The translations under genes and the position numbers were made by a program. From NCBI GenBank assembly GCA_947382355.1, contig CANCYR010000008.1, positions 1-64,000 on the forward strand: 64,000 nucleotides of DNA. Reading direction: 5' to 3'. Below, in pieces: positions 3,533 to 54,790 of the stretch. Under the pieces are notes generated by a model, which ran no database searches, was not told the DNA's origin, and worked only from the letters and a program-made list of their open reading frames with translations. Each line of letters starts with the position of its first letter. The stretch's first letter is position 1. The DNA is from an uncultured Lachnospiraceae bacterium (lineage in GTDB: Bacteria > Bacillota > Clostridia > Lachnospirales > Lachnospiraceae).

Positions 3533-4630
3533 ATGAAAAAATATAAGGATATGATATGTGTTGCCATTGTTGGTCTGTTTTTTGTCAGCCTGACCTTAGC
3601 TGTCTGGGTACTGCCTTCAAAGGAATTTTCTCACAGTGAAAGGCGTAAACTTGCACAGCTTCCGGAACTTTCTTATGGTGCTGTTAAGGACGGCAGCTTT
3701 ATAACAGAATTTGAGAGTTACACTCAGGACCAGTTTCCCCTGCGGGACACTTTCCGAACGGTTAAGGCATTTCTGACTTATTATATGTTCAGGCAGCCGG
3801 ACAATAACGGCATATATATGGAGGACGGTTATGCCGCAAAGCTGGAATACCCGCTGAACGAGAAATCCGTTAACCATGCTGCGGACAGATTTGAGTATAT
3901 TTACGAAAATTTCCTTGCGGATAAAAATTTGAATATCTGCTTTTCCATAGTTCCGGATAAAAGCTATTTTCTTGCAAAACAGAACGGCTATCTTTGCATG
4001 GATTATGAAAAGCTGTTTACCATGATGCAGGAGCGGATGAACTATGCCGGGTATATCGACATTACCGGAACTCTTGACATTACGGATTATTATAAGACCG
4101 ATACCCACTGGCGTCAGGAAAAACTTACGGATACTGCCGCAAAGATTGCCGCAGGAATGGGTGTCACTCTCTCAGGCAAATATACCGAAAAGGCACTTGA
4201 TTACCCGTTTTACGGAGTTTATTATGGACAGTCATCTCTTCCGTTGCCTGCTGAGACAATATATTATCTTACAAATGATATTCTTGACGGCTGTAAGGTG
4301 ACAAATCATGAGAAAGGTATTGTGGGTGGAATTTATGATATGGATAAGGCTTTAGGCAGGGACCCCTATGAAATGTTTCTGTCGGGCCCGCTTTCCCTTA
4401 TCACTATAGAAAACCCCAATTGTAAAAATGACCGTGAACTTATTGTGTTCAGGGATTCTTTTGGAAGCAGTATCGTTCCGCTTCTTGTGGAGGGATATTC
4501 AAAAGTAACGCTGGTGGATATCCGATATCTGAGAGCGGATTATCTGGATAAATTTATTGAATTCAATGACCAGGATGTGCTTTTTCTTTTCAGCACCCTT
4601 GTCCTTAACAACAGTGAAACATTCACTTGA
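3533..4630 (+). CDS. AlgJ/DHHW-like SGNH-fold O-acetylation protein, system 1
   Basis: 365 residues with one N-terminal membrane anchor (about residues 8-28) and an extracytoplasmic domain. Visible catalytic motifs are T-D-T-H-W with Asp190 and His192, and R-D-S-F-G-S with Ser309, the Asp-His-Ser layout of AlgJ/AlgX/DHHW acetyltransferases. N-terminal NERRxL-type features (HSERRKLAQLP) also match the family. It follows the MBOAT gene directly with its own AGGAGG site, so the two likely form an export-and-transfer pair: MBOAT passes the acyl group outward and this protein places it on the polymer. The acceptor is unknown. Confidence 0.88.
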   Translation: MKKYKDMICVAIVGLFFVSLTLAVWVLPSKEFSHSERRKLAQLPELSYGAVKDGSFITEFESYTQDQFPLRDTFRTVKAFLTYYMFRQPDNNGIYMEDGYAAKLEYPLNEKSVNHAADRFEYIYENFLADKNLNICFSIVPDKSYFLAKQNGYLCMDYEKLFTMMQERMNYAGYIDITGTLDITDYYKTDTHWRQEKLTDTAAKIAAGMGVTLSGKYTEKALDYPFYGVYYGQSSLPLPAETIYYLTNDILDGCKVTNHEKGIVGGIYDMDKALGRDPYEMFLSGPLSLITIENPNCKNDRELIVFRDSFGSSIVPLLVEGYSKVTLVDIRYLRADYLDKFIEFNDQDVLFLFSTLVLNNSETFT

Positions 4631-25351: not shown

Positions 25352-25704
25352 GTAAGTAGGACAAATGGTCGCGGCTGCCTTCTGGCAGGCGAGGAAAGTC
25401 CGGGCTTCACAGGGCAGGATGCCGGATAACGTCCGGTGGAGGCGACTCCAAGGATAGTGCAACAGAAATATACCGCCGGCGGGCGTTACCCGCCGGTAAG
25501 GTTGGAAGGGCAGTGTAAGAGACTACCGCCTTTCTGGTAACAGAAAGGGCATATGTAAACCCCATCCGAAGCAAGACCAAACAGAAAACAATCTGGCTGC
25601 CCGTCAGGTTTTCAGGTAGGTTGCTTGAGGCATTTGGCAACAAATGCCCTAGATAGATGACCATTCGCGACAGAACCCGGCTTATCGTCCTGCTTACTTT
25701 TTTA
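25352..25704 (+). ncRNA. rnpB: RNase P RNA component
   Basis: Conserved core blocks are present: GAGGAAAGTCCGGGCT near 25390, the cruciform region AGGGCAGTG, and AGATAGATGACCATTCGCGA with ACAGAACCCGGCTTATCG near 25650-25686. Helix P1 closes with GTAAGTAGGAC (25352-25362) and GTCCTGCTTAC (25687-25697), followed by TTTTTT as terminator. RNase P removes tRNA 5' leaders. An apparent coding frame running out of its 3' end into the next gene is not real. Confidence 0.96.
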
Positions 25705-25860
25705 TATTTATATAATTATTTGGAATTTTTTCAATGTCTTGAGTATTATCAACATCTTGGATATTATGAATGTTCTAAATATTATGAGTATGATGAATAT
25801 TTGTATGAAACAGATTGCATGTCTGTAGGACATGCTCTGAATGAGAAAACAGGGGGAGCC

Positions 25861-27276
25861 ATGCTGTTTAATTCCTTGGCATTTGCCGTTTTTTTACCAA
25901 TTGTATTTATTTTATACTGGGCATTGCCCCATAAATACCGCTATATACTTTTATTTCTGGCAAGCTATTATTTTTATATGAGCTGGAATGCAAAGTATGT
26001 AGTTTTAATTTTGTTTACCACCTTTGTTTCTTACGTAAGCGGTCTGCTTTTAAAAGAAAAGCAGTTCCGGCAGAAAAGAAAGATTCTTTTAAGCCTTACT
26101 TTGGTGGCAAGTCTGGGTATACTTTTTTTCTTTAAATATTCCAATCTGTTTTTAGGCTCTCTGAATGCAGTTTGTGAGCGGTTTGCAATTCCTCTGCATC
26201 CTGTGGCGCTGCAGTTTATGCTTCCGGTGGGTATTTCCTTTTACACCTTTCAGACTTTAAGCTATGTGATTGATGTGTACAAGGGAAAAGTGGAGCCGGA
26301 AAAAAACTTTGTAAAGTATGCGGCCTTTATTGCATTTTTCCCCCAGTTAGTGGCGGGACCCATTGAAAGAACGGAAAATCTGCTTCCTCAAATCAGGAAA
26401 GAGCAGTTTTTTTCCTATGAAAAGGCTTCTTACGGGCTTAAGCTGATGGCGTGGGGTTTTTTTAAAAAGCTGGTCATTGCCGATACGGTGGGAATCTATG
26501 TGGACCAGATTTATTCAGAAAGCTACTATTACAAAGGCTTTTCCCTGTTTCTTGCCACACTGCTGTTTGCCATGCAGATTTACTGCGACTTTTCCGGGTA
26601 TTCGGATATTGCCATTGGCTGCGGAAAGCTGTTTGGCATTGATTTGATGACGAATTTTAAAAGCCCTTATTTTGCCCGCTCCTTAAAGGAATTCTGGAGC
26701 AGATGGCATATTTCCTTATCCACCTGGTTTCGGGATTATGTGTATATTCCCCTTGGAGGGAACCGGGTGTCCGGGGTGAGGAAGCAGTGGAATCTGATTG
26801 TCACGTTTCTGGCAAGCGGCCTTTGGCATGGCGCCAATTATACATTTCTGCTGTGGGGGCTTTTTCATGGAGTGGGACAGGTGCTGGAAAAGGCTCTTGG
26901 AAAATGGTTCGGGAAATTTCAAAACCGGGCGGTTACTTTTTTCCTTGTGGTGATTGGATGGATTTTTTTCCGGGCGGATACTATAGGGGAAGCCTTTTAT
27001 GTGCTGAGCCATATGTTGGTCGGAATTTCCTCGCCGGTAAGCTATGTTTTGAATGGAATAAGGGATTTTCATATGACGGCTCTGGATGGATTCAGCGTTA
27101 TCGTGCCTGTTTTAGTGCTTGGGGTTTATGATTATGCTGCTTTGAAAACAGACCCCCTTGAGAGGATTTCCGCATTGCCTGTAAGGGCAAGGTGGGTGCT
27201 GTATTATGGGTTTATGTTGTTCTTTTTGCTGTTTGCTTCTTTTAATGCGAGGGAGTTTGTGTATTTTCAGTTTTAG
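25861..27276 (+). CDS. MBOAT family membrane O-acyltransferase (AlgI/DltB type), system 2
   Basis: 471-residue polytopic protein. Signature W-S-R-W-H-I-S-L-S-T-W-F-R-D-Y followed by YIPLGGNRV, and catalytic His in LWHGANYTF. The ATG at 25861 (MLFNSLAFAVFLP) has AGGGGGAG just upstream and matches the family start; the longer frame to 25657 overlaps rnpB and is rejected. Its likely partner is the anchored SGNH protein 94 bp downstream. The acyl donor and polymer are unknown. It resembles system 1 more than the MBOAT of the Dlt-like operon at 49989. Confidence 0.94.
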   Translation: MLFNSLAFAVFLPIVFILYWALPHKYRYILLFLASYYFYMSWNAKYVVLILFTTFVSYVSGLLLKEKQFRQKRKILLSLTLVASLGILFFFKYSNLFLGSLNAVCERFAIPLHPVALQFMLPVGISFYTFQTLSYVIDVYKGKVEPEKNFVKYAAFIAFFPQLVAGPIERTENLLPQIRKEQFFSYEKASYGLKLMAWGFFKKLVIADTVGIYVDQIYSESYYYKGFSLFLATLLFAMQIYCDFSGYSDIAIGCGKLFGIDLMTNFKSPYFARSLKEFWSRWHISLSTWFRDYVYIPLGGNRVSGVRKQWNLIVTFLASGLWHGANYTFLLWGLFHGVGQVLEKALGKWFGKFQNRAVTFFLVVIGWIFFRADTIGEAFYVLSHMLVGISSPVSYVLNGIRDFHMTALDGFSVIVPVLVLGVYDYAALKTDPLERISALPVRARWVLYYGFMLFFLLFASFNAREFVYFQF

Positions 27277-27370: not shown

Positions 27371-28393
27371 ATGGATAAAAAGCGAATGTGGAAGGAAATC
27401 GGAAAAACAGCAGGGAAGCTGCTCATATTGTTGGTGCCGTTTTTTGTACTGCTGCCTTTGTATTGCGCTTTTTTTCCGGAGTATTATATGGATGATGAAT
27501 ATGCCATGTACAAACAGCAGAAGGATTATGTGAAAGGGAGCAGGGAAGAGAATTCTGTAATTATTTTAGGGGATTCCCGGGCAAAGGCAGGGTTTGTGCC
27601 GGATTGGTTTGCAAAAGACTGCTACAATCTGTCTTTGGGAGGAGCAACCCCCATTGAGGGGTATTATTCCCTGAAGGAATATCTGGAAAACCATCCGGTG
27701 CCGGAAACGGTGATTTTGTCCTATGCGCCAATGCATTATATGGATGTGGACACTCTTTGGACAAGAAGTGTCTATTTCCACACAATGGATACGGAAGATT
27801 TTATGGAAATCATAAATACTGCAAAAGAATATGAAGATGATGACAATCAGAGTATTCTCATAGACAACTATCCGGTGGAATATGTGATGTACAAAGCATA
27901 TATGCCAAATAAATATGCCACTGCCTTAAAAAAAGCAGGCTTTGTATTCCGTTATCAAAAAACAAAAGAGAAATATGCACAGATGGAAGCGGGAAGAGGG
28001 CAAAGCTACTATGGCACAGCAGATTACAGCGACAGCTTCAACGGTGAAGCAAAAGTAACCAACTTTTTGCCAAATCGCATAATAACTCATTATATGTTGT
28101 GGGAGCTATTATCCTTATGCAGTGATAATAATATCCATGTAATTGTAAAAAATATGCCTATGAATGAAGCCTCCTATGCCATTCTCACAGATGATTTTAA
28201 AACCCACTATGCCCAATACATGGAAGCGTTGCAGTCATGGTATGAAAACTTTATTTTTGATACTGACCTGACTGCTTATCCAAATGACTGCTTCGGGGAT
28301 GCAGACCACCTGAACAAGAAGGGTACTGAGAGATTTTATCAGGAGCTGAAGGAAGAGTATCCGGAGTTGTTTAAGGGACGATATGTAAATTGA
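27371..28393 (+). CDS. Membrane-anchored SGNH-hydrolase-like acyltransferase partner, system 2
   Basis: 340 residues. One N-terminal membrane anchor (about 14-36) precedes an extracytoplasmic domain with the SGNH block I motif L-G-D-S-R (Ser69) and a C-terminal D-A-D-H-L-N (Asp310 and His313). These supply a Ser-His-Asp triad like that of DltD, AlgJ or PatB partners. The position after the MBOAT gene suggests it transfers the exported acyl group to a surface polymer. The start is the ATG at 27371 after GGGAGCGA. Confidence 0.85.
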   Translation: MDKKRMWKEIGKTAGKLLILLVPFFVLLPLYCAFFPEYYMDDEYAMYKQQKDYVKGSREENSVIILGDSRAKAGFVPDWFAKDCYNLSLGGATPIEGYYSLKEYLENHPVPETVILSYAPMHYMDVDTLWTRSVYFHTMDTEDFMEIINTAKEYEDDDNQSILIDNYPVEYVMYKAYMPNKYATALKKAGFVFRYQKTKEKYAQMEAGRGQSYYGTADYSDSFNGEAKVTNFLPNRIITHYMLWELLSLCSDNNIHVIVKNMPMNEASYAILTDDFKTHYAQYMEALQSWYENFIFDTDLTAYPNDCFGDADHLNKKGTERFYQELKEEYPELFKGRYVN

Positions 28394-42999: not shown

Positions 43000-44481
43000 A
43001 TGGAAAATATTATACGGCAATTAAAAAGTAAACTGAATCAGTTTGAGGATATTGATTTAACAGAGAGAACTTTAAGTAATAGAGTTATTATGTGGCTTTT
43101 AGAGGAATTTCTCGGATATGAACGGGATGATATGAAGTGGGAATCCCGGCTGCCATCCAAAGTGCAGAATTTATATGCAGACATCTTTATTGATGCCGGT
43201 GATGGTAAGAGGTTAATTATAGAAACGAAAAGGTATCAAAGCAAATTAGATAATGATGACTTCCTGCAATTAGATGGATATTTGAATAGAGAAAATGTTG
43301 AATGGGGTCTTATAACGAATGGCAGGGAATATTATCTTTTGAATCATGATATTCCTATTGATAGGCAATCGATGAGAAAAGCGGATATTACAGCTAAAAT
43401 TGTGATGAAAATAGAACTTGGTGAAGGTAGAAAAAAGGGGAAAAATGAAAAATATTTAAAATATCTTTCATATGAAAATTTATTTGAGAAGCAAACAACA
43501 AAATATTATAAATATATTGCTATATTTTTTAGCGGACATGAATTGTCTGGTAGTAGCAGGGAAAAATATGAAAATACATTATATAATTTTTTTGATTTTT
43601 ATATTGAAAAAGGCAATCCATATATTGAGTACAATAATGGTTTGCCACGTTCTTTGGCTGAAATTTCCGAAAAAGATGCAATTGAATTTTTAAAAGCAGA
43701 TCGGCCAGCAGGCAGGCCCTATTCTGGACAGGTTCCAAAAGCAAAATGTGCACATATTGCAACTATGTTTAAAAGAATGAAAGAAGAAGGATATACTAAT
43801 GAAAACAAAATGGAAAAATTGTTAGAGAGTGTGACAAAGGAATTTGAAAATATCGACAATAATAAAATAATAAAAAATAATTTATTGACAGCAGATAATG
43901 TCTGCTTAATTTTAAATCACTTAGAAGAAGGACGAAAACCAGTTAAAGTAGTTATATTTATACTGTGCGCTTATTATGGATTTGATAGAACTAAGATTAC
44001 TGATTTTCTGGCTTTAAAATGGAGTGAGGATATTGATTTAAAAAATTTCAGGTTTACATTGCATGGAAAAACTTATCCAATGGTAAAGAAGCTTGCAAAA
44101 TGTTTAGAAGAGATTCAACGGGAATATAAGAAAAAAGGGGTGAAAGCAAAATATATATACGTTACAAAAAAGGGAACAAAATATGTTCCTGTAAAAAAAG
44201 ATATTGTGAATACAGTTTTTGATGAGGATATAAAGAAAATTAAATGTGAAGATGAAAGATGGAATGCTTTGAATCCCCAAAATGTACGCGCCATGCTTAT
44301 TTTTAATATGTGTGAAAGTGGCTGTACTCTTGAAGATATATCATATATAACAGGAGCACCAGTTACGCAGATTTTGAGATATACTACCAATGAAATATTA
44401 GAAAAGACTGGAAAACAGTATTGGAAGAAGATGCGAAAGGCAGGAGAGACATATCATCCATTTAGGGAGATTTTTGAGTAA
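43000..44481 (+). CDS. PD-(D/E)XK nuclease (HsdR_N-like) fused to a degenerate tyrosine-recombinase-like domain
   Basis: 493 residues. Residues about 1-140 resemble the type I restriction HsdR N-terminal nuclease: Asp61 in Y-A-D-I-F-I-D, and Glu75-x-Lys77 in L-I-I-E-T-K-R, then the G-L-I-T-N-G-R-E-Y-Y-L-L end. From about 165 there is a SAM-like core-binding region (S-S-R-E-K-Y-E-N-T-L-Y-N-F-F-D-F-Y-I), and from about 300 an integrase-type catalytic fold: Arg330 in F-D-R-T-K-I-T-D-F-L-A-L-K-W, Arg430 in N-V-R-A-M-L-I-F-N-M-C-E-S-G, and Tyr461 in L-R-Y-T-T-N. The two usual His positions are Asn and Ala, so recombination activity is doubtful. Base composition is AT-rich compared with neighbours. 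In one operon with the next gene (29 bp gap). Confidence 0.72.
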   Translation: MENIIRQLKSKLNQFEDIDLTERTLSNRVIMWLLEEFLGYERDDMKWESRLPSKVQNLYADIFIDAGDGKRLIIETKRYQSKLDNDDFLQLDGYLNRENVEWGLITNGREYYLLNHDIPIDRQSMRKADITAKIVMKIELGEGRKKGKNEKYLKYLSYENLFEKQTTKYYKYIAIFFSGHELSGSSREKYENTLYNFFDFYIEKGNPYIEYNNGLPRSLAEISEKDAIEFLKADRPAGRPYSGQVPKAKCAHIATMFKRMKEEGYTNENKMEKLLESVTKEFENIDNNKIIKNNLLTADNVCLILNHLEEGRKPVKVVIFILCAYYGFDRTKITDFLALKWSEDIDLKNFRFTLHGKTYPMVKKLAKCLEEIQREYKKKGVKAKYIYVTKKGTKYVPVKKDIVNTVFDEDIKKIKCEDERWNALNPQNVRAMLIFNMCESGCTLEDISYITGAPVTQILRYTTNEILEKTGKQYWKKMRKAGETYHPFREIFE

Positions 44482-44510: not shown

Positions 44511-46064
44511 ATGATTCCACTAAAAATAGAGATATTGCTTGCCGGAAAGATTGTGGAGCAGAACCGTGTAGAGTATAAAGAAGGATGGAATCCAAATGAT
44601 ATTATTCATACAATCTGTGCTTTTGCCAATGATTATAATAATATGAATGGAGGGTATCTGGTAATTGGAGTACAGGCTAGGAATGGAATCCCGGTATTAC
44701 CTCCAAAAGGATTACCACTAACAGAGTTGGATTTCATACAGCAGGAAATATTTCAATATTGTAATCAAATCTATCCACGATATATTCCTAAGATAGAAGT
44801 TATTAACTATCAAAATTCAGGAAGATACTTAATATATTTATGGTGTACTGCTGGTGATAGTGGTCCATATCAGTCACCGGTTGATGTTTATGCAGAAAAA
44901 GGAAAGAAAGCTGATAAGAGAATGCAATATTGGATTCGGCCTTCATCATTAACGACAGGTGCTCATAAAGATGAACTTGCAGAATTATTCGATAAGTTTA
45001 ACTCAATACCATACGATGATCGCATAAATAGAAAAGCAAATATAAAAGATATTCGACGAGGCTACGTGGAAGACTTCCTTCGTGACAGTAACAGTACATT
45101 GTTAAATGATATCAATACAAGTACGCTGGAAGATTTACTTGTTTCCCTTGAGGTGGCAGATGAGACAGATGTGGAAATGAATATTCGTAATATTGGTGTT
45201 TTGATGTTTGCAGAGCGTCCGGACAAGCTGCTTCCTGGCGCACAGATTGATTTGGTTAGATTTAATACAAAAGATGAAGAAGGATCTGATGATTTTTTGG
45301 AAAAAACTTTTTATGGGCCTATATGGAAACAGGTAAGGGATTCTCTGGATTATATTAAAACCAATGTAATAGAGGAAAAGGTGGTTAAGATACAAGGTCG
45401 GGCAGAATCCGAAAGATATTTTAATTATCCATATAATGCGTTAGAAGAGGCGGTGGTTAATGCTGTATTTCACAAATCTTATCGGGAACCGGAACCGGTA
45501 GAAATACGAATTTATATAGACCGTATTATGATTATCAATTATCCGGGACTGGCAAAGTGGATAAATTTGGACAAATTTGTTTCAGGTAAGGCAAAGGCCC
45601 GCAAATATCGTAATCGAAGGATAGGTGAGTTATTTAAAGAAATTGATTTATCTGAGAAGCAGGGTACGGGTATTATAAAGATACTTAGAGAATTACAAAA
45701 AAATGGTTCTCCTGAGCCGGAATTTGAAATGGATGAAAACAGAACCTATTTGGCCACAACGATTTATATTCGGAATGGGTTTGTTCATAAAGAAATGTCC
45801 GAATCAATGTCCGAATCAATGTCCGAATCAATGTCCGAATCAATGTCCGAACTAGAACGGACCCGTATGAAGCCAATACTGGAATATTTAAATATGCATT
45901 CAGATATTAATAGCGCAATAGCTGCTAATGTGTTGGACATTCAGATAAAAACGGCGGCAAGACTGTTGGCAAAAGCTGAAAAAATTGGTATATTAGAAAG
46001 CAAAGGAAAAACAAAAAATAAGTTTTATGTATTAAAAAGAACTTGTGATACAAAAATGTTATAA
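44511..46064 (+). CDS. AlbA_2 (Schlafen-like) / HATPase_c_4 ATP-binding protein with MSES repeats
   Basis: 517 residues. Residues about 15-125 form an AlbA_2 domain (N-R-V-E-Y-K-E-G-W...I-C-A-F-A-N-D-Y...G-G-Y-L-V-I-G-V). A long linker leads to an HATPase_c_4-type module (N-A-L-E-E-A-V-V-N-A-V-F-H...I-D-R-I-M-I-I-N-Y-P-G...Y-R-N-R-R-I-G-E-L-F...G-T-G-I-I-K-I). A tandem M-S-E-S linker and a winged-helix end (MKPILEYLNMH...AANVLDIQIKTAARLLAKAEKIGIL) follow. Such proteins act as regulators or as parts of defence systems. It follows the nuclease-recombinase gene with AGGAGG upstream and shares its base composition. Confidence 0.82.
   Translation: MIPLKIEILLAGKIVEQNRVEYKEGWNPNDIIHTICAFANDYNNMNGGYLVIGVQARNGIPVLPPKGLPLTELDFIQQEIFQYCNQIYPRYIPKIEVINYQNSGRYLIYLWCTAGDSGPYQSPVDVYAEKGKKADKRMQYWIRPSSLTTGAHKDELAELFDKFNSIPYDDRINRKANIKDIRRGYVEDFLRDSNSTLLNDINTSTLEDLLVSLEVADETDVEMNIRNIGVLMFAERPDKLLPGAQIDLVRFNTKDEEGSDDFLEKTFYGPIWKQVRDSLDYIKTNVIEEKVVKIQGRAESERYFNYPYNALEEAVVNAVFHKSYREPEPVEIRIYIDRIMIINYPGLAKWINLDKFVSGKAKARKYRNRRIGELFKEIDLSEKQGTGIIKILRELQKNGSPEPEFEMDENRTYLATTIYIRNGFVHKEMSESMSESMSESMSESMSELERTRMKPILEYLNMHSDINSAIAANVLDIQIKTAARLLAKAEKIGILESKGKTKNKFYVLKRTCDTKML
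45796..45851 (+). repeat. 12-bp tandem repeat encoding MSES
   Basis: ATGTCCGAATCA occurs four times in a row from 45796, followed by a partial fifth unit ATGTCCGAA. The unit is a multiple of 3, so repeat-number change would lengthen or shorten the linker without a frameshift. Confidence 0.9.
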
Positions 46065-46315: not shown

Positions 46316-47350
46316 GTGAAACGTTGTAAAAAATGCGGTTTGCCGGAAATTTATACGAATATCCGGTTTAATGCGGAAGGAATCTGCAATTACTGTGAAT
46401 TTTATGAAAGTCATAGGGATGAGTTGGAAGATAAGCAAAAGCTGGAACAGATTTTCCTTCAGAAAATGGAAGAAGGAAAGAAAAAGGCAAAAGAGGCAGG
46501 CTCAAAATATGACTGTCTGGCAGGGTTCAGCGGAGGAAAGGACAGCACCTATATTATATATCAGCTAAAAGAAAAGTATGGAATGCGGGTGCTGGCATTT
46601 ACCTTTGACAATGGCTTTTCCACGGAATACGGAAAGAATAATATAAAAAATGCTTTGGAAAAGCTCAAGGTGGACCATATTACATTTTCCATGAATGATG
46701 AAAAATTGAGAAAGCAATATACAGCCTGTGTAAATATGATGCAAAATTTCTGTTCGGTCTGCTTTCACTATATGCATTATTACAGCTACCTGTTTGCAGG
46801 GCAGAATAAAATACCGCTTATTATAAACGGAAGGACAAAAGGACAAATCCTGCAATATGCTGACAGCATAAAAGGAATCGAGCCTTTTGAAAGCTCCCGT
46901 CATTTAAAGGAATTTGAATACCAGATGTTTCACGGACTGGAAGAGCGGGCTGATAAAGCAGGACGGATGGATTATTTAAAGGATGTGGAGGCGGAAGCAG
47001 TTTCTTATTTTGCCTATCATGATATCAGCGAAGAAGAAACCATGAAATTTCTGGAGAAAAAAATCGGATGGGTGCGGCCACAGGGAATCAGCGGACATGC
47101 GGACTGCTTTGCCCATGCCATGGCGGAAAACATGAGCCTTCAAAAAAGAGGATTCCCAATCAGAACAGGGGAACTGGCAGTTTCCGTGCGAAGGGGAGAG
47201 CTTTCTCTGGAAGAAGCGGATAAAATTGCGAAAGAGGACAGGGAGAATTTCATGGAAGTGCCTGAACAGTTGAAAAAAGAATTTTATGACAGGATTTCAG
47301 TAAAAAAAGCAGGAAAGAAAAACGGAAGGACAGGAGAAGATGGTCTGTAA
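46316..47350 (+). CDS. PP-loop ATP pyrophosphatase with N-terminal zinc ribbon (N-acetyl sugar amidotransferase-like)
   Basis: 344 residues. A zinc ribbon (Cys4, Cys7, Cys24, Cys27) precedes the PP-loop S-G-G-K-D-S (72-77), which activates a substrate by AMP transfer. The layout resembles WbpG/PseA-like N-acetyl sugar amidotransferases. Those use a HisH/HisF-like partner for ammonia, and none is here. Instead it heads an operon of adenylation, formyl transfer, carrier, MBOAT and SGNH genes, and overlaps the next gene by 11 bases. So it may amidate or otherwise modify the small molecule to be attached. The GTG at 46316 has GGAGG 6 bases upstream. Confidence 0.8.
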   Translation: MKRCKKCGLPEIYTNIRFNAEGICNYCEFYESHRDELEDKQKLEQIFLQKMEEGKKKAKEAGSKYDCLAGFSGGKDSTYIIYQLKEKYGMRVLAFTFDNGFSTEYGKNNIKNALEKLKVDHITFSMNDEKLRKQYTACVNMMQNFCSVCFHYMHYYSYLFAGQNKIPLIINGRTKGQILQYADSIKGIEPFESSRHLKEFEYQMFHGLEERADKAGRMDYLKDVEAEAVSYFAYHDISEEETMKFLEKKIGWVRPQGISGHADCFAHAMAENMSLQKRGFPIRTGELAVSVRRGELSLEEADKIAKEDRENFMEVPEQLKKEFYDRISVKKAGKKNGRTGEDGL

Positions 47351-48872
47351 CGTATTGGAATACTTGGAAAGGGCAGAAAAGCTTTATCCGGACAAGCCGG
47401 CATTTGGAGATGAATCCGGACAGCTTACCTATAGACAATTGGCTCAGGCAGCAAGAAGAATGGGCAGCAGACTGGCAGAGCAGGGCGCATACAGGGAGCC
47501 GGTGGCAGTGTTGATTGACAAGGATGTAAACACACTGACTGCATTTATGGGAATCGTATACAGCGGCTGTTTTTATGTTCCGGTGGACAAAACCCTGCCA
47601 ATAGAAAGAATCAGAACCATTTTATCAGTAGTAAGTTCCGGATATCTTATTGTGAAAAAAGAAGATGAACAGCTTGGCAGGGAGTTTGAAAAAGAGACAA
47701 AGCTGCTATTTCTGGAAGAAATGTTCCAAAAATCTGTTCACCAGCCGGAAAATTTGCCGTTGCTTACCAGAATCCGGGAAAGACATTTGGACACCAATCC
47801 CCTCTATATGATATTTACTTCGGGCTCCACCGGAGTTCCCAAAGGGGTGCTGATTTCCCACAGATCAGTGATTGATATGGCAGAGCAGTTTACAAAGACA
47901 TTCCAATTTTCTTCTGAGGAGGTTTTTGCCAATCAGGCTCCCTTTGATTTTGACGTGTCGGTAAAGGATATCTATCTGACTTTAAGGAACGGGGCGTCCA
48001 TGTACATTGTGCCAAAAAGCATGTTTGTCATGCCCAAAAAGCTTGCCGGGTTTTTCAATGAAAAGAAAATAACAACCATTATATGGGCAGCCTCTGCATT
48101 AGGGGTTGCAGCCTCCTTTCGGATATTGGAAAAAGAAGCGCCCCGATATCTAAAGAAAATCATGTTTTCCGGAGAAGTGCTTCCCATGAAAGTACTGCAT
48201 TATTGGCAGAAGCATGTAAGAGATTCGATTTATGTAAACTTGTATGGTCCTACGGAAATTACCTGTAACTGCACTTACTACATAGTGGACAGGGAATTTT
48301 CACAAGACCAGGTCCTTCCCATTGGCAAGGCATTTCCCAATACGGAAATCCTTCTTTTCAATGAAGAAAACAGGCTGGCAGAGCCGGGAGAGCAGGGAGA
48401 AATCTGTGTCAGGGGCTCATCTCTTGCGCTGGGCTATTATAAAAATAAAGAGGAAACAGAGAAGGCATTTTGCCAGAATCCCCTTCATGAGGATTATCTG
48501 GATATGATTTATCGAACCGGGGACATGGGCTATATAAATGACCGGGGAGAGCTGGTATTTGCAGCAAGAAAAGACCACCAGATTAAGCATATGGGCCACC
48601 GGATTGAACTTTTGGAAGTGGAGGCTTCTGTGAATGCAGTGGAAGAAGTGGAAAAATGCTGCTGTATGTATGACGATATCTTAGGAAAAATCCTGTTGTT
48701 TTATCAGGCGGAAAAAGAAATGGAAAAGGAAATCATCAGTCAGCTCCATAATAAGCTTCCCAAATATATGTGTCCAAATGTATTTTACAGGCTGGATAAA
48801 ATACCGGAAAACAATCATGGCAAAATAGACCGACAGCGATTAAAGCAGAAATATATGGAGAATAACAAGTGA
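47340..48872 (+). CDS. DltA-like adenylation (AMP-binding) enzyme
   Basis: 510-residue adenylate-forming enzyme. Core motifs: Y-M-I-F-T-S-G-S-T-G-V-P-K-G (A3), Y-G-P-T-E (A5), Y-R-T-G-D-M-G (A7), and the C-terminal N-N-H-G-K-I-D-R (A10 Lys). It has the length of a stand-alone DltA/NRPS A-domain with no carrier fused. It should activate a carboxylic or amino acid as AMP-ester and load it on the carrier at 49755. Substrate cannot be read. It overlaps its neighbours on both sides (11 and 4 bases). Confidence 0.92.
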   Translation: MVCNVLEYLERAEKLYPDKPAFGDESGQLTYRQLAQAARRMGSRLAEQGAYREPVAVLIDKDVNTLTAFMGIVYSGCFYVPVDKTLPIERIRTILSVVSSGYLIVKKEDEQLGREFEKETKLLFLEEMFQKSVHQPENLPLLTRIRERHLDTNPLYMIFTSGSTGVPKGVLISHRSVIDMAEQFTKTFQFSSEEVFANQAPFDFDVSVKDIYLTLRNGASMYIVPKSMFVMPKKLAGFFNEKKITTIIWAASALGVAASFRILEKEAPRYLKKIMFSGEVLPMKVLHYWQKHVRDSIYVNLYGPTEITCNCTYYIVDREFSQDQVLPIGKAFPNTEILLFNEENRLAEPGEQGEICVRGSSLALGYYKNKEETEKAFCQNPLHEDYLDMIYRTGDMGYINDRGELVFAARKDHQIKHMGHRIELLEVEASVNAVEEVEKCCCMYDDILGKILLFYQAEKEMEKEIISQLHNKLPKYMCPNVFYRLDKIPENNHGKIDRQRLKQKYMENNK

Positions 48873-49753
48873 AGGGAAAAGTAAAAAAGGTCTGCGTGGC
48901 AGGCACCGGAAAGCTGGCTCTCTCCTGTGCGGTTCATGCAAAGGAAAAAGGATTTCCGGTTACTTTGTATGATATGGGGCTAAAGAAATCAGAGCTTTTA
49001 AAAAGGCAGGCCAAGGCAGAAGGCGTTCCCTGCTTTTATGAAGTGCCGGAGGATGTTTTTGAAAAGCTTTATAAAGAAGAACAGCCCCTGTTACTGATTA
49101 GCGCCATCAATGAAAGGATAATTCCGGAAAAGGTGCTGGAAAAGGAAAACATCAGGGCGGTGAATCTGCATCAGGCGCTTTTGCCTGCCCATCCCGGGAG
49201 AAATGCAGAAGCATGGGCAATTTTTGAACAGGATGAAAAGTCGGGTATTACCTGGCATGATGTGGTAAAACAGGTGGATGGAGGCGGGATTTTAGCCCAA
49301 AAGGAAATCAGCCTGAATGAAAGCATAACGGCATGGCAGCTATTCAGAAAACAGATAGAGTGCGCCTATGAAGCATACACAGAAATATTTGATGCTCTTA
49401 TAGACGGCACCATAAAACCGGTTCCGCAAGAGAAAAGGCCGAAATATAAATTTCACTTTAAAAAGGATGTGCCCGGCAACGGCATTCTGGATATGAGCTG
49501 GGATGGAAAAAAAATCAGCGCCTTTTTAAGAGCTATGGATTACGGTGGGGTTTCTGTTTTTGAAAAGCCCAGACTGATATATAAAGGGAAGAGCTTTTTG
49601 TGGAAAAAATATGAAATACGGCATGAAGAGGAAAAAGAATCCTGTCAGCAGACAGGCGGGGAAATGTTTAAGATAACAGAAGATGAAATTGTAATAAAAA
49701 AGGATACTATTTGTATCAGGTTAAAAAATTATGAAATAGCGGAGGAAATATGA
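48869..49753 (+). CDS. Formyltransferase-family enzyme (Fmt/ArnA/GART-like)
   Basis: 294 residues. The N-10-formyl-THF-dependent formyltransferase active site is complete: Asn99 and His101 in N-L-H-Q-A-L-L-P-A-H-P-G-R, and Asp137 in V-D-G-G-G-I-L. The C-terminal part resembles the Fmt C-terminal domain (about 205-290). Family members formylate Met-tRNA, sugar amines or purine precursors. In this operon the likely target is an amine on the carried group. It starts at GTG 48869, sharing GTGA with the stop of the adenylation gene. Confidence 0.87.
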   Translation: MKGKVKKVCVAGTGKLALSCAVHAKEKGFPVTLYDMGLKKSELLKRQAKAEGVPCFYEVPEDVFEKLYKEEQPLLLISAINERIIPEKVLEKENIRAVNLHQALLPAHPGRNAEAWAIFEQDEKSGITWHDVVKQVDGGGILAQKEISLNESITAWQLFRKQIECAYEAYTEIFDALIDGTIKPVPQEKRPKYKFHFKKDVPGNGILDMSWDGKKISAFLRAMDYGGVSVFEKPRLIYKGKSFLWKKYEIRHEEEKESCQQTGGEMFKITEDEIVIKKDTICIRLKNYEIAEEI

Positions 49754-49754
49754 A

Positions 49755-49985
49755 ATGGAAAAGTTGATGGAAATTTTAAAGAATTTAAGGCCGGAGGTAG
49801 ATTTTAATACGGAAAAAAGTCTGATTGACGGAGGAGTATTGGACTCTTTTGATTTAGTTTCCTTAATTGGCGAACTGAACGAAGAATTTGAAATTGAAAT
49901 TTCCTTTGATGATATGGAACCTGAAAATTTTAATTCTGCAGAGCAGATATATCAGATGATTGTAAGGCTGCAAAGTGAGGAGTAA
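49755..49985 (+). CDS. Acyl carrier protein (DltC-like)
   Basis: 76 residues, acidic. The phosphopantetheine site is Ser31 in L-D-S-F-D-L-V, within G-G-V-L-D-S; helix 2-3 pattern I-G-E-L-N-E-E-F-E-I-E-I matches DltC/PCP-type carriers. It should carry the activated group as a thioester between the adenylation enzyme and the MBOAT. The ATG follows AGGAAATATGAA directly after the formyltransferase stop. Confidence 0.92.
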   Translation: MEKLMEILKNLRPEVDFNTEKSLIDGGVLDSFDLVSLIGELNEEFEIEISFDDMEPENFNSAEQIYQMIVRLQSEE

Positions 49986-49988
49986 GAA

Positions 49989-51563
49989 ATGACTATAAAT
50001 TCCATGTCGTTTTTGCTGTTTTTTTTAGGGACGGCAGTGGTATATTATCTGCCCTTTCTGAAAAAATATCAATGGGCGGTTCTATTGGCTGCAAGCTACT
50101 TGTTTTATTTTTTTACCGGAACAGATAATTTTATTTATATTCTTATTACGACTGTAACTACTCACTTTTCTGCACTTGCATTGAGCCGGAAAAACAAACA
50201 GCTGAAGGAGTACAAAGAAAGGTGTAAAAAAGAAGAAGCCGCAGAATATAAAGAAAGAATCAAACGGGAAAAAAAGAGAATCATATTTTTTGATGTGGTT
50301 ATCAATGTAGGCATTTTGATTTTTGTTAAATACAGTAATTTCTTTATATTTAACATAAACCGGATACTGGACGGGGAAAGAGGCATAGAGTTAAAAGCGC
50401 TGAATATACTGGTTCCTTTGGGGATTTCCTATTATACCCTTCAGAGCATTGGATATGTTTTGGATGTGTCCAAGGGAAAGACAAAGGCAGAAGCAAATCT
50501 GTTAAAGACAGCTTTGTTCGTCAGTTATTTTCCCCAGATTACCCAGGGCCCCATTGGAAGGTTTGAAAAGCTGGCTCCCCGGTTGTTTCGTTCCCACAAG
50601 CCTGCATGGCAGAATTTATCCTTTGGATGCCAGAGAATACTATGGGGATTTTTTAAGAAGACGGTTATTGCAGACCGGATGAACCCGTTTGTGGATGAAA
50701 TTTTTCTGAATTTCCAACAGTATAGCGGTTTTACATTGTTTTTGGGATGCATGTATTTTTCCATACAGGCTTATGTGGATTTTTCCGCCTACATGGATAT
50801 AGCGGCGGGGTATTCCCAGATACTGGGAATCAAGCTGGAAGAAAATTTTATGCGTCCTTTCCTTTCCCAATCCCTGGCAGAATATTGGCGAAGATGGCAC
50901 ATCACCTTAAGCAGCTGGTTTCGGGATTACCTGTTTTATCCCTTGTCGATTTCCAAGCCCGCGGTAAAGCTTTCCCGCATGGGGCGAAAGTATCTGCCAG
51001 CCCGGATTGCCAAGCTGGTGCCATCCATTTATGCTATGTTTGTTGTGTGGTTTGCAACAGGCTTTTGGCATGATGCAAGCTGGCGCTATATTTTATGGGG
51101 CGTTGCCAATGGAATTATTATGATAAGCTCTATGTGCTTTTCAGGAACGTTCCAGACATGGAAAGAAAAATTACATATCAAGGATGAAAACAGGTTATGG
51201 CGTTTGTTTAGAAGAGTAAGAACCTTTTTATTGATTAGTCTGTTAAAGGTATTTCCGGCAGCAGATTCCACAGGAAATTCTTTGCAAATATTAAAGCATA
51301 TTGTTACAGATTTTCAAATCAGCTTTTCTTATCAGGCATGGTTCCCGGGGTTGATTAAAAACTATCTGGCATATATTCTGTTTGGACTGATTCTGTTTTT
51401 TGCAGTGAGCATAAGACAGGAAAAAGAGCCTGTCCGGAATTATCTGGCAAGGAAATCCTTTGTATTAAGATGGTGTCTTTACCTGATTATTTTATGCTCT
51501 GTTTTAGCCTTTGGAGTATTAGGAACGGGAATTTCGGGAGGATTTGAATATGCGCAGTATTAA
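49989..51563 (+). CDS. MBOAT family acyltransferase (DltB-like), system 3
   Basis: 524-residue polytopic protein, longer than the other two MBOAT proteins, with a charged cytoplasmic loop (about 65-95: K-E-Y-K-E-R-C-K-K-E-E-A). The motif W-R-R-W-H-I-T-L-S-S-W-F-R-D-Y-L and the catalytic His in F-W-H-D-A-S-W-R-Y are present, with Asp instead of the usual Gly after His. It has an insert between these motifs. Beside a carrier protein and adenylation enzyme it should play the DltB role, moving the thioester-bound group across the membrane. It overlaps the next gene by 14 bases. Confidence 0.92.
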   Translation: MTINSMSFLLFFLGTAVVYYLPFLKKYQWAVLLAASYLFYFFTGTDNFIYILITTVTTHFSALALSRKNKQLKEYKERCKKEEAAEYKERIKREKKRIIFFDVVINVGILIFVKYSNFFIFNINRILDGERGIELKALNILVPLGISYYTLQSIGYVLDVSKGKTKAEANLLKTALFVSYFPQITQGPIGRFEKLAPRLFRSHKPAWQNLSFGCQRILWGFFKKTVIADRMNPFVDEIFLNFQQYSGFTLFLGCMYFSIQAYVDFSAYMDIAAGYSQILGIKLEENFMRPFLSQSLAEYWRRWHITLSSWFRDYLFYPLSISKPAVKLSRMGRKYLPARIAKLVPSIYAMFVVWFATGFWHDASWRYILWGVANGIIMISSMCFSGTFQTWKEKLHIKDENRLWRLFRRVRTFLLISLLKVFPAADSTGNSLQILKHIVTDFQISFSYQAWFPGLIKNYLAYILFGLILFFAVSIRQEKEPVRNYLARKSFVLRWCLYLIILCSVLAFGVLGTGISGGFEYAQY

Positions 51564-52587
51564 AAAAATAGCCGGAAGACTGCTTCTTATTTGTATTGTT
51601 TTATGGTTATTCGATACAATTGTCGAGTTCCTTTACAGGCCCTATAACCGATACACCCCTTATGCCATAAGAGAATTAAAGGAATGTCAGGGAAGCATTG
51701 ACACACTCTTTCTTGGTACATCTACGGCATACCGGGGATTTTCGCCGGATGTGTTTGACCGGGAGCTTGGAACCTTCAGCTTTAATGCTGCCACTGCCTC
51801 CCAGCCGGCCCAGGGAACTCTTGCCCTGTTAAAGGATGAGGCAGAAAGGAATCCTATAAAAAGGGTATTCTTAGGGGTTTCCCCACGTATGCTTGTGAAA
51901 GAAGAGGCACATATTGAGAGAAAGACGGAGGTGTATGACAGACTGTTATCTCTTAAGGGAAAGTTTTTATATCTGGCAGAGGGCTGTACAAGCGAAGAAT
52001 GGTTGAATCTGATTTTCTATGCTGTAAGAGTAGATAAATATTTTAATATAGGAAAGTTAAAGAAAAACTTAAGCTATAAGTTGTCTGATGCTTACCGGGA
52101 AAACAGGGCTCCTATGGCAACTTATAAAGGAAAAGGATTTCTGGCAGGGAAAGAGGTATATCAGGGACAGGAGTATGAAACTATTGTAAAAAGGGAAAGC
52201 GCCTGGAAGGTGGATGATGAAAATCAGCAGGCACTCATAGAGATAATGGAATATTGTAAGGAACGTGAAATAGAGTTAATTTTGGTTTTTATTCCTGTTT
52301 CGGGGGCTGAAATCGATGGATATAAGGACCTGGGTGTAATTCATGAATACTTCCGGGAAATGGCAGACAGACACGGGGCTATATTTTGGGATTTTAATTA
52401 TTATAAAGGATTGAAGGAGGAATTTCCAAACAGCATGTTTCAGGACAAGAGGCATTTAAATGAAGCCGGCGGACATGCGTTTACGCAATTGATTGCAGAA
52501 GTTTATGAAAAGTATAAAGGTGGAGAGGGAATAGAAGGATATTTTCTGGATACCTGTCCTTATTATGAAAATCTCATTGACGAATAG
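51550..52587 (+). CDS. DltD/SGNH-like membrane-anchored transferase, system 3
   Basis: 345 residues. N-terminal anchor (about 5-25), then an outer domain with block I L-G-T-S-T (Ser58, where SGNH proteins usually have G-D-S or G-S-S) and D-K-R-H-L-N-E-A-G-G with Asp299 and His302. These are the triad positions of DltD-like SGNH enzymes. It probably receives the group exported by the MBOAT and passes it to a surface polymer. The ATG at 51550 has GGGAGG 8 bases upstream; the TTG at 51544 is too near that site. Last gene of the Dlt-like set; the response regulator begins 39 bp later. Confidence 0.85.
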   Translation: MRSIKKIAGRLLLICIVLWLFDTIVEFLYRPYNRYTPYAIRELKECQGSIDTLFLGTSTAYRGFSPDVFDRELGTFSFNAATASQPAQGTLALLKDEAERNPIKRVFLGVSPRMLVKEEAHIERKTEVYDRLLSLKGKFLYLAEGCTSEEWLNLIFYAVRVDKYFNIGKLKKNLSYKLSDAYRENRAPMATYKGKGFLAGKEVYQGQEYETIVKRESAWKVDDENQQALIEIMEYCKEREIELILVFIPVSGAEIDGYKDLGVIHEYFREMADRHGAIFWDFNYYKGLKEEFPNSMFQDKRHLNEAGGHAFTQLIAEVYEKYKGGEGIEGYFLDTCPYYENLIDE

Positions 52588-52626: not shown

Positions 52627-53316
52627 ATGAAACGGTATATTATTTTGATTGTAGAGGATGAAAAGAAACTATTAAATACACTATCTGATTTTTTAAAGCT
52701 AAATGGTTATGAGGTGCTTATTGCAGAAAACGGAATTGAAGCAATGAAACAGTTTACCGCTCATGCACAGGAAATCGACCTTGTGCTTTTGGATATTATG
52801 CTTCCCTTTCTCAATGGATATGAGCTGCTAAAGGAAATCCGGATGCGCTCTAACGTACCTGTTATCATGCTTACGGCAAAATCATCCATTGAAGACCAGA
52901 TAGAAGGATTTGAATATGGAGCGGATGACTATATCACAAAGCCCTACAGCCTGTCGCTTATCAAGGCACATATAGAAGCTGTACTGAAGCGGGCGGGAAA
53001 GGTAAAGGATTTTATGATTTCCGGAGATATCCGGATGGATGTGAAGGGGCAGAAGGTATACGTCAGAGAAAATTATATAGAGACCACGCCAAAGGAGTTT
53101 GAACTGCTTTTGTTCTTTATGGAAAACGAAGGAATGGTTTTGAGCAGGGGCCGTATTTTAGATGCGGCATGGGGCTATCATTACGAAGGAGACATAAGAA
53201 CAGTGGACACTCTGGTAAAGCAGCTTCGGAAAAAGCTGGACGGTGGAAGTTACATCCGCTCTATTTACGGTGTTGGATACGTTTTTGGAGGAACGGAGAA
53301 TGTTCAAAAAAATTAG
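52627..53316 (+). CDS. OmpR-family response regulator
   Basis: 229 residues. Receiver domain with E-D-E, phospho-acceptor Asp56 in V-L-L-D-I-M-L-P, and T-A-K; C-terminal winged helix typical of OmpR/PhoB (T-P-K-E-F-E-L-L...D-I-R-T-V-D-T-L-V-K-Q-L-R-K-K-L). It overlaps the kinase gene by 17 bases. It follows the Dlt-like operon by 39 bp, so both may form one transcript and it may control it, as seen for other surface-modification operons. Confidence 0.95.
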   Translation: MKRYIILIVEDEKKLLNTLSDFLKLNGYEVLIAENGIEAMKQFTAHAQEIDLVLLDIMLPFLNGYELLKEIRMRSNVPVIMLTAKSSIEDQIEGFEYGADDYITKPYSLSLIKAHIEAVLKRAGKVKDFMISGDIRMDVKGQKVYVRENYIETTPKEFELLLFFMENEGMVLSRGRILDAAWGYHYEGDIRTVDTLVKQLRKKLDGGSYIRSIYGVGYVFGGTENVQKN

Positions 53317-54748
53317 TGTAAGGCTTATTATTCTGGAGTGGGTGTTTCTGGCAATTATCATTGGCGGAAGCATTGTGCTTTATGGAACCTTTGCACCTGC
53401 TTATTACAATTACTATAAGGGAAAGGTAATTATGCAGGCTTTTGAGGATATTAAGGAAACGGATTTTACGAACCTGTCGGATGAGGATATCGGCATGTTC
53501 TTAGAATACGAAAAGGAAAATCTGAGCTTTACCGTTGCAGATGAAGAAATGCAATCCATTTATACTACCAAATCCAATGAAGACAGTGTCATTTACAGAA
53601 ATATTGTATTAAGGCTGGATCAATTTTCAGAAGAACCCAAAATTATGAGCAGGAATAGTAAAAGGAATAGTAACCTTAAGCTGCTTGGCATTGTAAAGCA
53701 GGAGGGGCTCTCTTATTATGTATGTATCCGGGACAAGGTCCAGAACGTTTACAGCAGCTTTCAGTTTACGGAAAAGTTCATGTTAATCATGTTTGTAATT
53801 GCCCTTGCCTTTGGAAGCATTATTATGTACTTTCTGTCAAGAAATTTCACAAGGCCTATCCGGGAAATGGCAAGGGTGGCAGAGGGGCTGGCAGAAAGGG
53901 ACTTTCGGGAAAAGGTAGAAGAAAACGGTGATTATGAAGAGATGAATCATCTGGCAAAATGCATCAACAGCATGTCAGAACAGCTTCAGGATTATGTGGA
54001 GCAGATTGAAGAAAGCCGGAAACAGCTATTGGATCAGAATATTCAAAAGGAGCGGATGGAGAAAGCAAGGAAGGATTTTATTGCAAATGCTTCCCACGAG
54101 CTGAAGACTCCCCTTGCCGTGATTTCAAGCCAGATTGAAATGCTTCAATATGTACAGGAAGAGGAACGGAAATATTATATGGATTCCATTCAGGAAGAAG
54201 TCACAAGGATGTCGGAAATGGTGGGAAATCTTTTGGATGTTTCTGTAATAGAGCATCATATGGAGCAGATGAAAAAGGAATCTGTTCTTATGGATGAAGT
54301 GGTAAACTATATGCTGATGAAATATGAAGCGTTGTTTAAAAAGAAAAAGCTGAATGTTTATACAGAATTGGAAAAGAACTGTTATGTGCGTGGAGACAGG
54401 GAATATATCGAACAGGCAATGAATAATTTTCTGATGAATGCTTTTGAGCATACGGAAAAGCAGGGAGATATCAGGATTTATCTAAAAAATGTGGAAGAAG
54501 GCATTTATTTTGGCGTGTTTAATCAGGGAAAACCTATTCCTGAAAAGGATATGGAAAAAATATGGAAAAGCTTTTGGATGAAAGAGTATGAAGGAGAGTC
54601 AGCAGCCCATGCGGGAATCGGACTTTATATTGTCCAGAGCGTAATTCATTTTCATGAGGGAAAATGCGGCGTGGAAAATAAAGAAAAAGGGGTGGAATTC
54701 TGGTTCATGCTGCCAAAATCCTGTGAGGAAGAACAGAAAAGGCTATAG
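53300..54748 (+). CDS. Sensor histidine kinase
   Basis: 482 residues. Membrane segments near 10-30 and 165-185 enclose an outside sensor domain. A HAMP domain (F-T-R-P-I-R-E-M-A...), HisKA with phospho-acceptor His266 in S-H-E-L-K-T-P-L, and a HATPase domain with N-N-F-L-M-N-A-F-E-H-T and G-I-G-L-Y-I-V-Q follow. ATG at 53300 with GGAACGGAG upstream. The sensed signal is unknown; given the extracellular domain and the preceding operon, cell-envelope stress or peptides are possible. Confidence 0.94.
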   Translation: MFKKISVRLIILEWVFLAIIIGGSIVLYGTFAPAYYNYYKGKVIMQAFEDIKETDFTNLSDEDIGMFLEYEKENLSFTVADEEMQSIYTTKSNEDSVIYRNIVLRLDQFSEEPKIMSRNSKRNSNLKLLGIVKQEGLSYYVCIRDKVQNVYSSFQFTEKFMLIMFVIALAFGSIIMYFLSRNFTRPIREMARVAEGLAERDFREKVEENGDYEEMNHLAKCINSMSEQLQDYVEQIEESRKQLLDQNIQKERMEKARKDFIANASHELKTPLAVISSQIEMLQYVQEEERKYYMDSIQEEVTRMSEMVGNLLDVSVIEHHMEQMKKESVLMDEVVNYMLMKYEALFKKKKLNVYTELEKNCYVRGDREYIEQAMNNFLMNAFEHTEKQGDIRIYLKNVEEGIYFGVFNQGKPIPEKDMEKIWKSFWMKEYEGESAAHAGIGLYIVQSVIHFHEGKCGVENKEKGVEFWFMLPKSCEEEQKRL

Positions 54749-54761
54749 TGTATAAAGAAAA

Positions 54762-54790
54762 GGCGAATGGGTCATTCCCATTCGCCATAT
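54762..54790. terminator. Bidirectional terminator overlapping the pyrI stop
   Basis: GGCGAATGGG (54762-54771) and CCCATTCGCC (54777-54786), loop TCATT. The minus-strand side is followed by TTTTCTTT, the plus side by ATATTTTTC. The TGA of pyrI is inside the loop. Confidence 0.88.

Follow-up and report, generated by a model that had tools for sequence, protein, structure and literature searches.

What would a bacterium attach to its envelope with a Dlt-like operon that holds two further enzymes? Dlt-type decorations govern surface charge and antimicrobial peptide resistance in Gram-positive bacteria. The question is raised by a locus in a stretch of 64,000 nucleotides, hereafter the window, from contig CANCYR010000008.1 (positions 1 to 64,000; GenBank assembly GCA_947382355.1) of an uncultured Lachnospiraceae bacterium. 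Six genes (46316-52587, + strand), named here PP, A, F, C, B and D in their order, encode a PP-loop enzyme of the AANH type, a stand-alone amino acid adenylation enzyme, a formyltransferase, a DltC-like carrier protein, a DltB-like MBOAT protein and a DltD-like transferase of SGNH fold. We find it quite probable that A, F, C, B and D make up a single Dlt-like route in modified form, in which PP serves as a tailoring enzyme. A thioformyl product is a tentative suggestion that could well be right. The complete proposal, in which an exported cell-envelope polymer receives a thioamide, either N-thioformyl-aminoacyl or, in genomes with a GNAT acyltransferase instead of F, N-thioacetyl, is possible but held with more doubt.

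Gene content and organization

An open reading frame (ORF) check placed all six genes on the + strand, where neighbours overlap by 4-20 bp or stand 1-5 bp apart. Together with the domain searches, these coordinates bear out the preliminary description, made from the sequence alone, of six overlapping or nearly overlapping genes. A (47340..48872, 510 amino acids) matches PF00501 and TIGR01733 above cut-off. F (48869..49753, 294 amino acids) matches PF00551 at 1.2e-17 (64.7 bits, cut-off 26.1), and the complete N-H-D site that had been read in it is found as N99-x-H101...D137, unchanged in 8 relatives. C (49755..49985, 76 amino acids) scores above the PF00550 cut-off and has the DSFD motif already attributed to it, with a serine (Ser31) that is invariant in 7 relatives. 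B (49989..51563, 524 amino acids) belongs to the MBOAT family above cut-off, with H304 and H361 conserved. D (51544..52587, 347 amino acids) gave no match in Pfam and NCBIfam searches; its AlphaFold2 (AF2) model, with a mean predicted local distance difference test (pLDDT) score of 90.4, has an SGNH fold and DltD (6pfx) as its top Foldseek match, in agreement with the SGNH-like label first given to this protein. In the fold searches, a family missing from a list was not counted as absent. B and D thus compose an MBOAT-SGNH pair, in which the MBOAT protein is accompanied by a partner of SGNH fold with G-x-S (S60) and a histidine (H304). In the same genome, the PF00550 search returned four carrier-like matches besides C, in two places, and the family search reported a single A-type match.

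A two-component system follows D, as had been stated. The OmpR-type response regulator gene (52627..53316, + strand) starts 39 bp past D, and the sensor histidine kinase gene (53243..54748, + strand) is given from its first in-frame start, the true start being probably later. In relatives, such a response regulator accompanies PP or A, and related two-component genes go with one or the other where the two are split. A terminator-like hairpin after the kinase gene (54762..54786, + strand; 10 pairs, consensus match) is suggestive of the end of the transcription unit, and the consensus scan found as many terminator-like hairpins in the region as expected from shuffled sequence. The ratio of nonsynonymous to synonymous substitution rates (dN/dS) between the window and the same-genus genome G299 is 0.06-0.19 across all eight genes, which indicates that all eight are kept up as proteins. 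A viral or phage origin was set aside, since the genes are of chromosomal type and inherited vertically within a family.

The operon shares with the Dlt D-alanylation system its stand-alone adenylation enzyme, DSFD carrier, MBOAT protein and transferase of SGNH/DltD fold in one operon, and the adjoining two-component system. It differs in that A, B and C all lie below the equivalog cut-offs for DltA (298.2 against 559.85 bits), DltB (153.5 against 375 bits) and DltC (43.0 against 68 and 25.1 against 52.35 bits on two models). The pocket code of A is also distinct, DVKIMSLCNK against DLMTLCTVAK in DltA (pocket positions as in PMC11253843), and the operon has two extra enzymes, PP and F.

Conservation and rearrangement among Lachnospiraceae

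The order PP-A-F-C-B-D, which the preliminary description had proposed to look for in other Lachnospiraceae, recurs in G299, G204 and G082 and, from a scan of genome contigs, at further loci, across several genera of the family. In a survey of 299 Lachnospiraceae genomes, each of a different genus, F (scored at E < 1e-50) is present in 5/5 genomes that carry PP of the window's clade and in 1/294 others (Fisher p = 3.1e-10, a test that takes genomes as independent, though relatives are not). We also sorted the 26 Lachnospiraceae genomes whose PP belongs to this clade by the arrangement of F. It stands in one operon or gene run with PP and A in 13 of the 26 and a few kilobases off PP in 3, and a further 3 hold A-F-C(-B) at a separate site. 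In 2 genomes (L096, L106) F is replaced by a GNAT acyltransferase, 4 have neither F nor GNAT between A and C (L080, L101-L103), and 1 (L091) is broken by a contig end.

Two rearrangements are informative. In L097, A and F are fused into one 804-residue protein, followed by C, B, D and PP. In L096, a GNAT acetyltransferase stands between A and C with PP retained, no F match was found in the genome at 1e-18, and the genes after PP match those of L097; Blautia schinkii (L106) likewise has a GNAT gene at the same A-C position and retains PP. The first and third genes had been described as additions to a classical dlt operon, and both their co-occurrence and the fusion are in line with this. The co-occurrence of PP and F, the A-F fusion and the GNAT gene in the F position with PP kept make it most likely that F N-formylates the carrier-bound aminoacyl group. 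Either enzyme, F or GNAT, would turn the aminoacyl group into an N-acyl amide, in keeping with a subsequent step by PP; that PP would use this amide is read from gene position. The linear gramicidin module LgrA follows a comparable logic, in which a formyltransferase, an adenylation enzyme and a carrier formylate a carrier-bound amino acid, as in the A-F fusion of L097. Here, however, the proteins are mostly stand-alone and feed an MBOAT/SGNH pair rather than a nonribosomal peptide synthetase (NRPS), and the fusion order is A-F, not F-A.

Some relatives hold an insertion (L084:13455-17487, also L087 and L088) composed of an adenosine monophosphate (AMP) ligase and a three-gene ATP-binding cassette (ABC) transporter whose binding protein is of the SsuA/NMT1 type. 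It is found at either the F-C or the PP-A junction and may be an acyl or sulphur source.

The PP-loop enzyme

PP (46316..47350, 344 amino acids) has the overall fold of the NASAT enzymes (WbpG, WbuX, LpNASAT 8WEX), their zinc-type tetracysteine motif CxxC-Xn-[GN]xCxxC (C4/C7, G22-I-C24..C27) and an SGGKDS PP-loop (S72-S77). Among structures, its predicted model matches LpNASAT best, with Z 24.7 across 301 residues, followed by the sulphur transferase TtuA (Z 12.5). The WbuX model TIGR03573 matches it from end to end at 4.4e-46, with 157.9 bits against a cut-off of 203.2. Unlike the NASATs, PP carries an additional Cys triad, C146/C149/C264, which is invariant in 28/28 relatives and which most NASAT-like homologues lack. 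The window operon and its neighbours show no sugar or nonulosonic-acid biosynthesis context. The two triad-less homologues examined reach 342 and 378 bits on TIGR03573 and both lie in nonulosonic-acid clusters with NeuB-type genes, one of which (L233) includes a HisH-type glutaminase. As judged from these features, PP is unlikely to be a sugar amidotransferase, and the sugar-amidotransferase annotation of such PP-loop proteins is probably wrong.

The triad points instead to CtaC of closthioamide biosynthesis, which thioamidates amides bound to a carrier protein, requires C154, C157, C284, D77 and S78, and binds a [4Fe-4S] cluster (PMC6772006). C146/C149/C264 and D76/S77 of PP are near in position to these residues (positions from PMC6772006), and in a profile alignment C146/C149 line up with the CxxC of TtuA. 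PP shares its operon with A and C, the carrier-protein (thiotemplated) setting expected for the CtaC type. Most of the triad-bearing Clostridia homologues examined adjoin NRPS, polyketide synthase (PKS), acyl carrier protein (ACP)/carrier or AMP-ligase genes, a context read from neighbouring ORFs and confirmed by Pfam for some only. In a tree of homologues, which held triad-bearing homologues without CtaC itself, the CxxC label takes 2 changes, compared with 23.9 on average after shuffling, a contrast inflated by near-copies in a tree with several long deep branches. We therefore predict from its motifs and setting that PP is a CtaC-type Fe-S thioamide synthetase. The two would have in common an AANH fold with a [4Fe-4S] Cys triad at matching spacing and a carrier-protein pathway of an anaerobe; they differ in that PP belongs to an MBOAT/SGNH surface-acylation operon and that a formyltransferase or GNAT would supply its predicted amide.

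Two further loci show related enzymes in other surroundings. A PP relative, 52% identical, lies in a Bacillota cluster (L104:10001-17327) with GNAT, KASIII-like, AMP ligase, ACP-like and aminotransferase genes, a possible thioamide natural product cluster. Elsewhere, a Cys-triad AANH gene adjoins genes of ThiF-family, FeeM-type N-acyl amino acid synthase, KAS-like and ACP-like proteins (L224:7117-11305).

The adenylation pocket and the amino acid

The window and the F- or PP-linked relatives read share the code DVKIMSLCNK, with the exception of G147 (DVKVLSLCNK). In the same survey, twelve A genes with DVKxxSxCNK codes (L078 included) adjoin a BtrK-like decarboxylase gene, compared with 0/10 A genes with other codes, and the closest solved structure to this decarboxylase is BtrK. 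BtrK decarboxylates glutamyl carrier protein. The presence of Lys239 in the A pocket and of this decarboxylase beside A genes of the same code suggests an acidic amino acid, which might be loaded via the side chain in the manner of VinN systems; both points are a guess from the pocket code. Glycine or D-alanine would be less favoured, the code by eye fitting neither DltA nor the glycine module of LgrA. Beta-amino-acid recognition of the VinN type was set aside: A shares S301 with VinN but does not evidently have its shortened loop.

Carrier loading is paired with a pyridoxal phosphate (PLP)-dependent decarboxylase in the VinN/VinO/VinL and BtrI/BtrK systems. Dlt-like operons whose A has the same pocket code are widespread and resemble them in having a BtrK-like decarboxylase between A and C (L078:7424-12906, L167-L185). 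These probably represent another undescribed surface acylation, beta-alanyl or gamma-aminobutyric acid (GABA)-like. The window operon differs from them in lacking the decarboxylase; a decarboxylation step was rejected for the window system because its genome has no BtrK-like match at 1e-20, and the enzyme is absent from most PP genomes too.

A proposed route and its alternatives

In the route that we infer, A would adenylate an amino acid, possibly acidic, and load it onto the phosphopantetheine of C, after which F would move a formyl group from 10-formyltetrahydrofolate to the amino group to give N-formyl-aminoacyl-C. PP, as an Fe-S-dependent AANH of CtaC type, would adenylate the formamide oxygen and swap in sulphur to give N-thioformyl-aminoacyl-C. 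B would carry the group over the membrane, D would esterify it to an extracellular polymer, perhaps teichoic-acid-like, and the neighbouring two-component system would regulate the unit. In the relatives that lack PP, a plain N-formyl product is possible. The preliminary description had seen a Dlt-like route with an added PP-loop enzyme and formyltransferase, and these genes do travel as a unit. Its suggestion of a formamidino group has lost ground: because the triad of PP matches that of CtaC, a thioformyl product is likelier, and the canonical amidine-forming NASATs are without the triad, the two clusters read being the nonulosonic-acid ones described above.

Several observations weigh against this route. 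The closest whole-chain structure to PP is LpNASAT and not a sulphur transferase, the tie to CtaC is one of motif and context only, and no sulphur-mobilising gene was found in the window operon. L080 reads PP-A-C-B-D, with no F found there, and the genomes L101-L103 hold PP and an A-C-B-D operon in which F was likewise not found, unlinked N-acyltransferases not having been searched for; PP therefore has no known amide in these genomes unless an unlinked N-acyltransferase supplies one. Conversely, F occurs without PP in G179 (A-F-C-B) and G147 (B-A-C-F). Taken together, these exceptions leave the sequence A, F, PP as the simplest reading, not a proven one.

The same exceptions favour an alternative in which the decoration made by A, F, C, B and D is an N-formyl-aminoacyl group and PP has a different substrate, either some other small molecule or the amino acid prior to loading. 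PP might, for example, amidate or thiolate a free carboxylate of the amino acid, and Lys239 together with the BtrK-associated sister operons suggests a free-carboxylate substrate. We consider this unlikely, though a serious contender, in view of the operons that unite PP, A and F in 13/26 genomes, the other N-acyltransferase that accompanies PP in L096 where F is missing, and the carrier-protein systems that adjoin the Cys-triad relatives.

A formamidine would arise if PP, as a NASAT, turned the N-formyl amide and ammonia into an N-formimidoyl (formamidino) aminoacyl group for export by B and D. The top fold match, the tetracysteine motif with SGGKDS and the end-to-end match to TIGR03573 all speak for this chemistry, which would equally need an N-acyl donor enzyme. 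PP nevertheless scores under the TIGR03573 family cut-off and has the extra triad in every relative, and the operon is without a HisH/HisF-type glutaminase, whereas the canonical cluster L233 has HisH; we therefore judge the amidine improbable. A small secreted or carrier-released metabolite, with no polymer decoration, is more improbable again: Cys-triad AANHs elsewhere do sit in NRPS/PKS-type clusters, but B and D form a conserved MBOAT-SGNH pair whose known members (Dlt, PatA/PatB) acylate envelope polymers, and the A-F-C-B genes of Eubacterium sp. 14-2 (L141) adjoin a cytidine diphosphate (CDP)-glycerol glycerophosphotransferase-family gene, an ABC ATPase gene and a Stealth-family gene.

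Acceptor polymer and significance

The neighbours in L141 make a teichoic-acid-like or capsule polymer a plausible acceptor; the neighbours of the window operon gave no hint of one. If the proposal is true, formylation and thionation would remove the cationic amine and display a polar, possibly metal-binding or peptidase-resistant group on common gut anaerobes, and thioamide enzymology would be linked with envelope acylation. A literature search, with subscription journals and supplements outside its scope, returned no description of this gene combination, nor of any thioamide decoration of a bacterial surface. The operon offers defined genes, residues and mass shifts for testing.

Other features of the window

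Further acyl-transfer genes occur upstream of the operon. A second MBOAT gene (PF03062, 2112-3515) is followed by a gene for a DHHW-domain protein (3533-4630), and a third (25657-27276) by one for a 340-residue protein without a Pfam match (27371-28393); across the genome, six MBOAT matches to B were counted. A single protein encoded at 43000-44481 joins the N-terminal domain of a type I restriction enzyme (HSDR_N_2) to a region resembling phage integrases, the integrase match being just under cut-off. Within the AlbA_2/HATPase_c_4 gene at 44511-46064, a perfect 12-bp tandem repeat of 4.8 copies (45794-45851) codes for MSES repeats.

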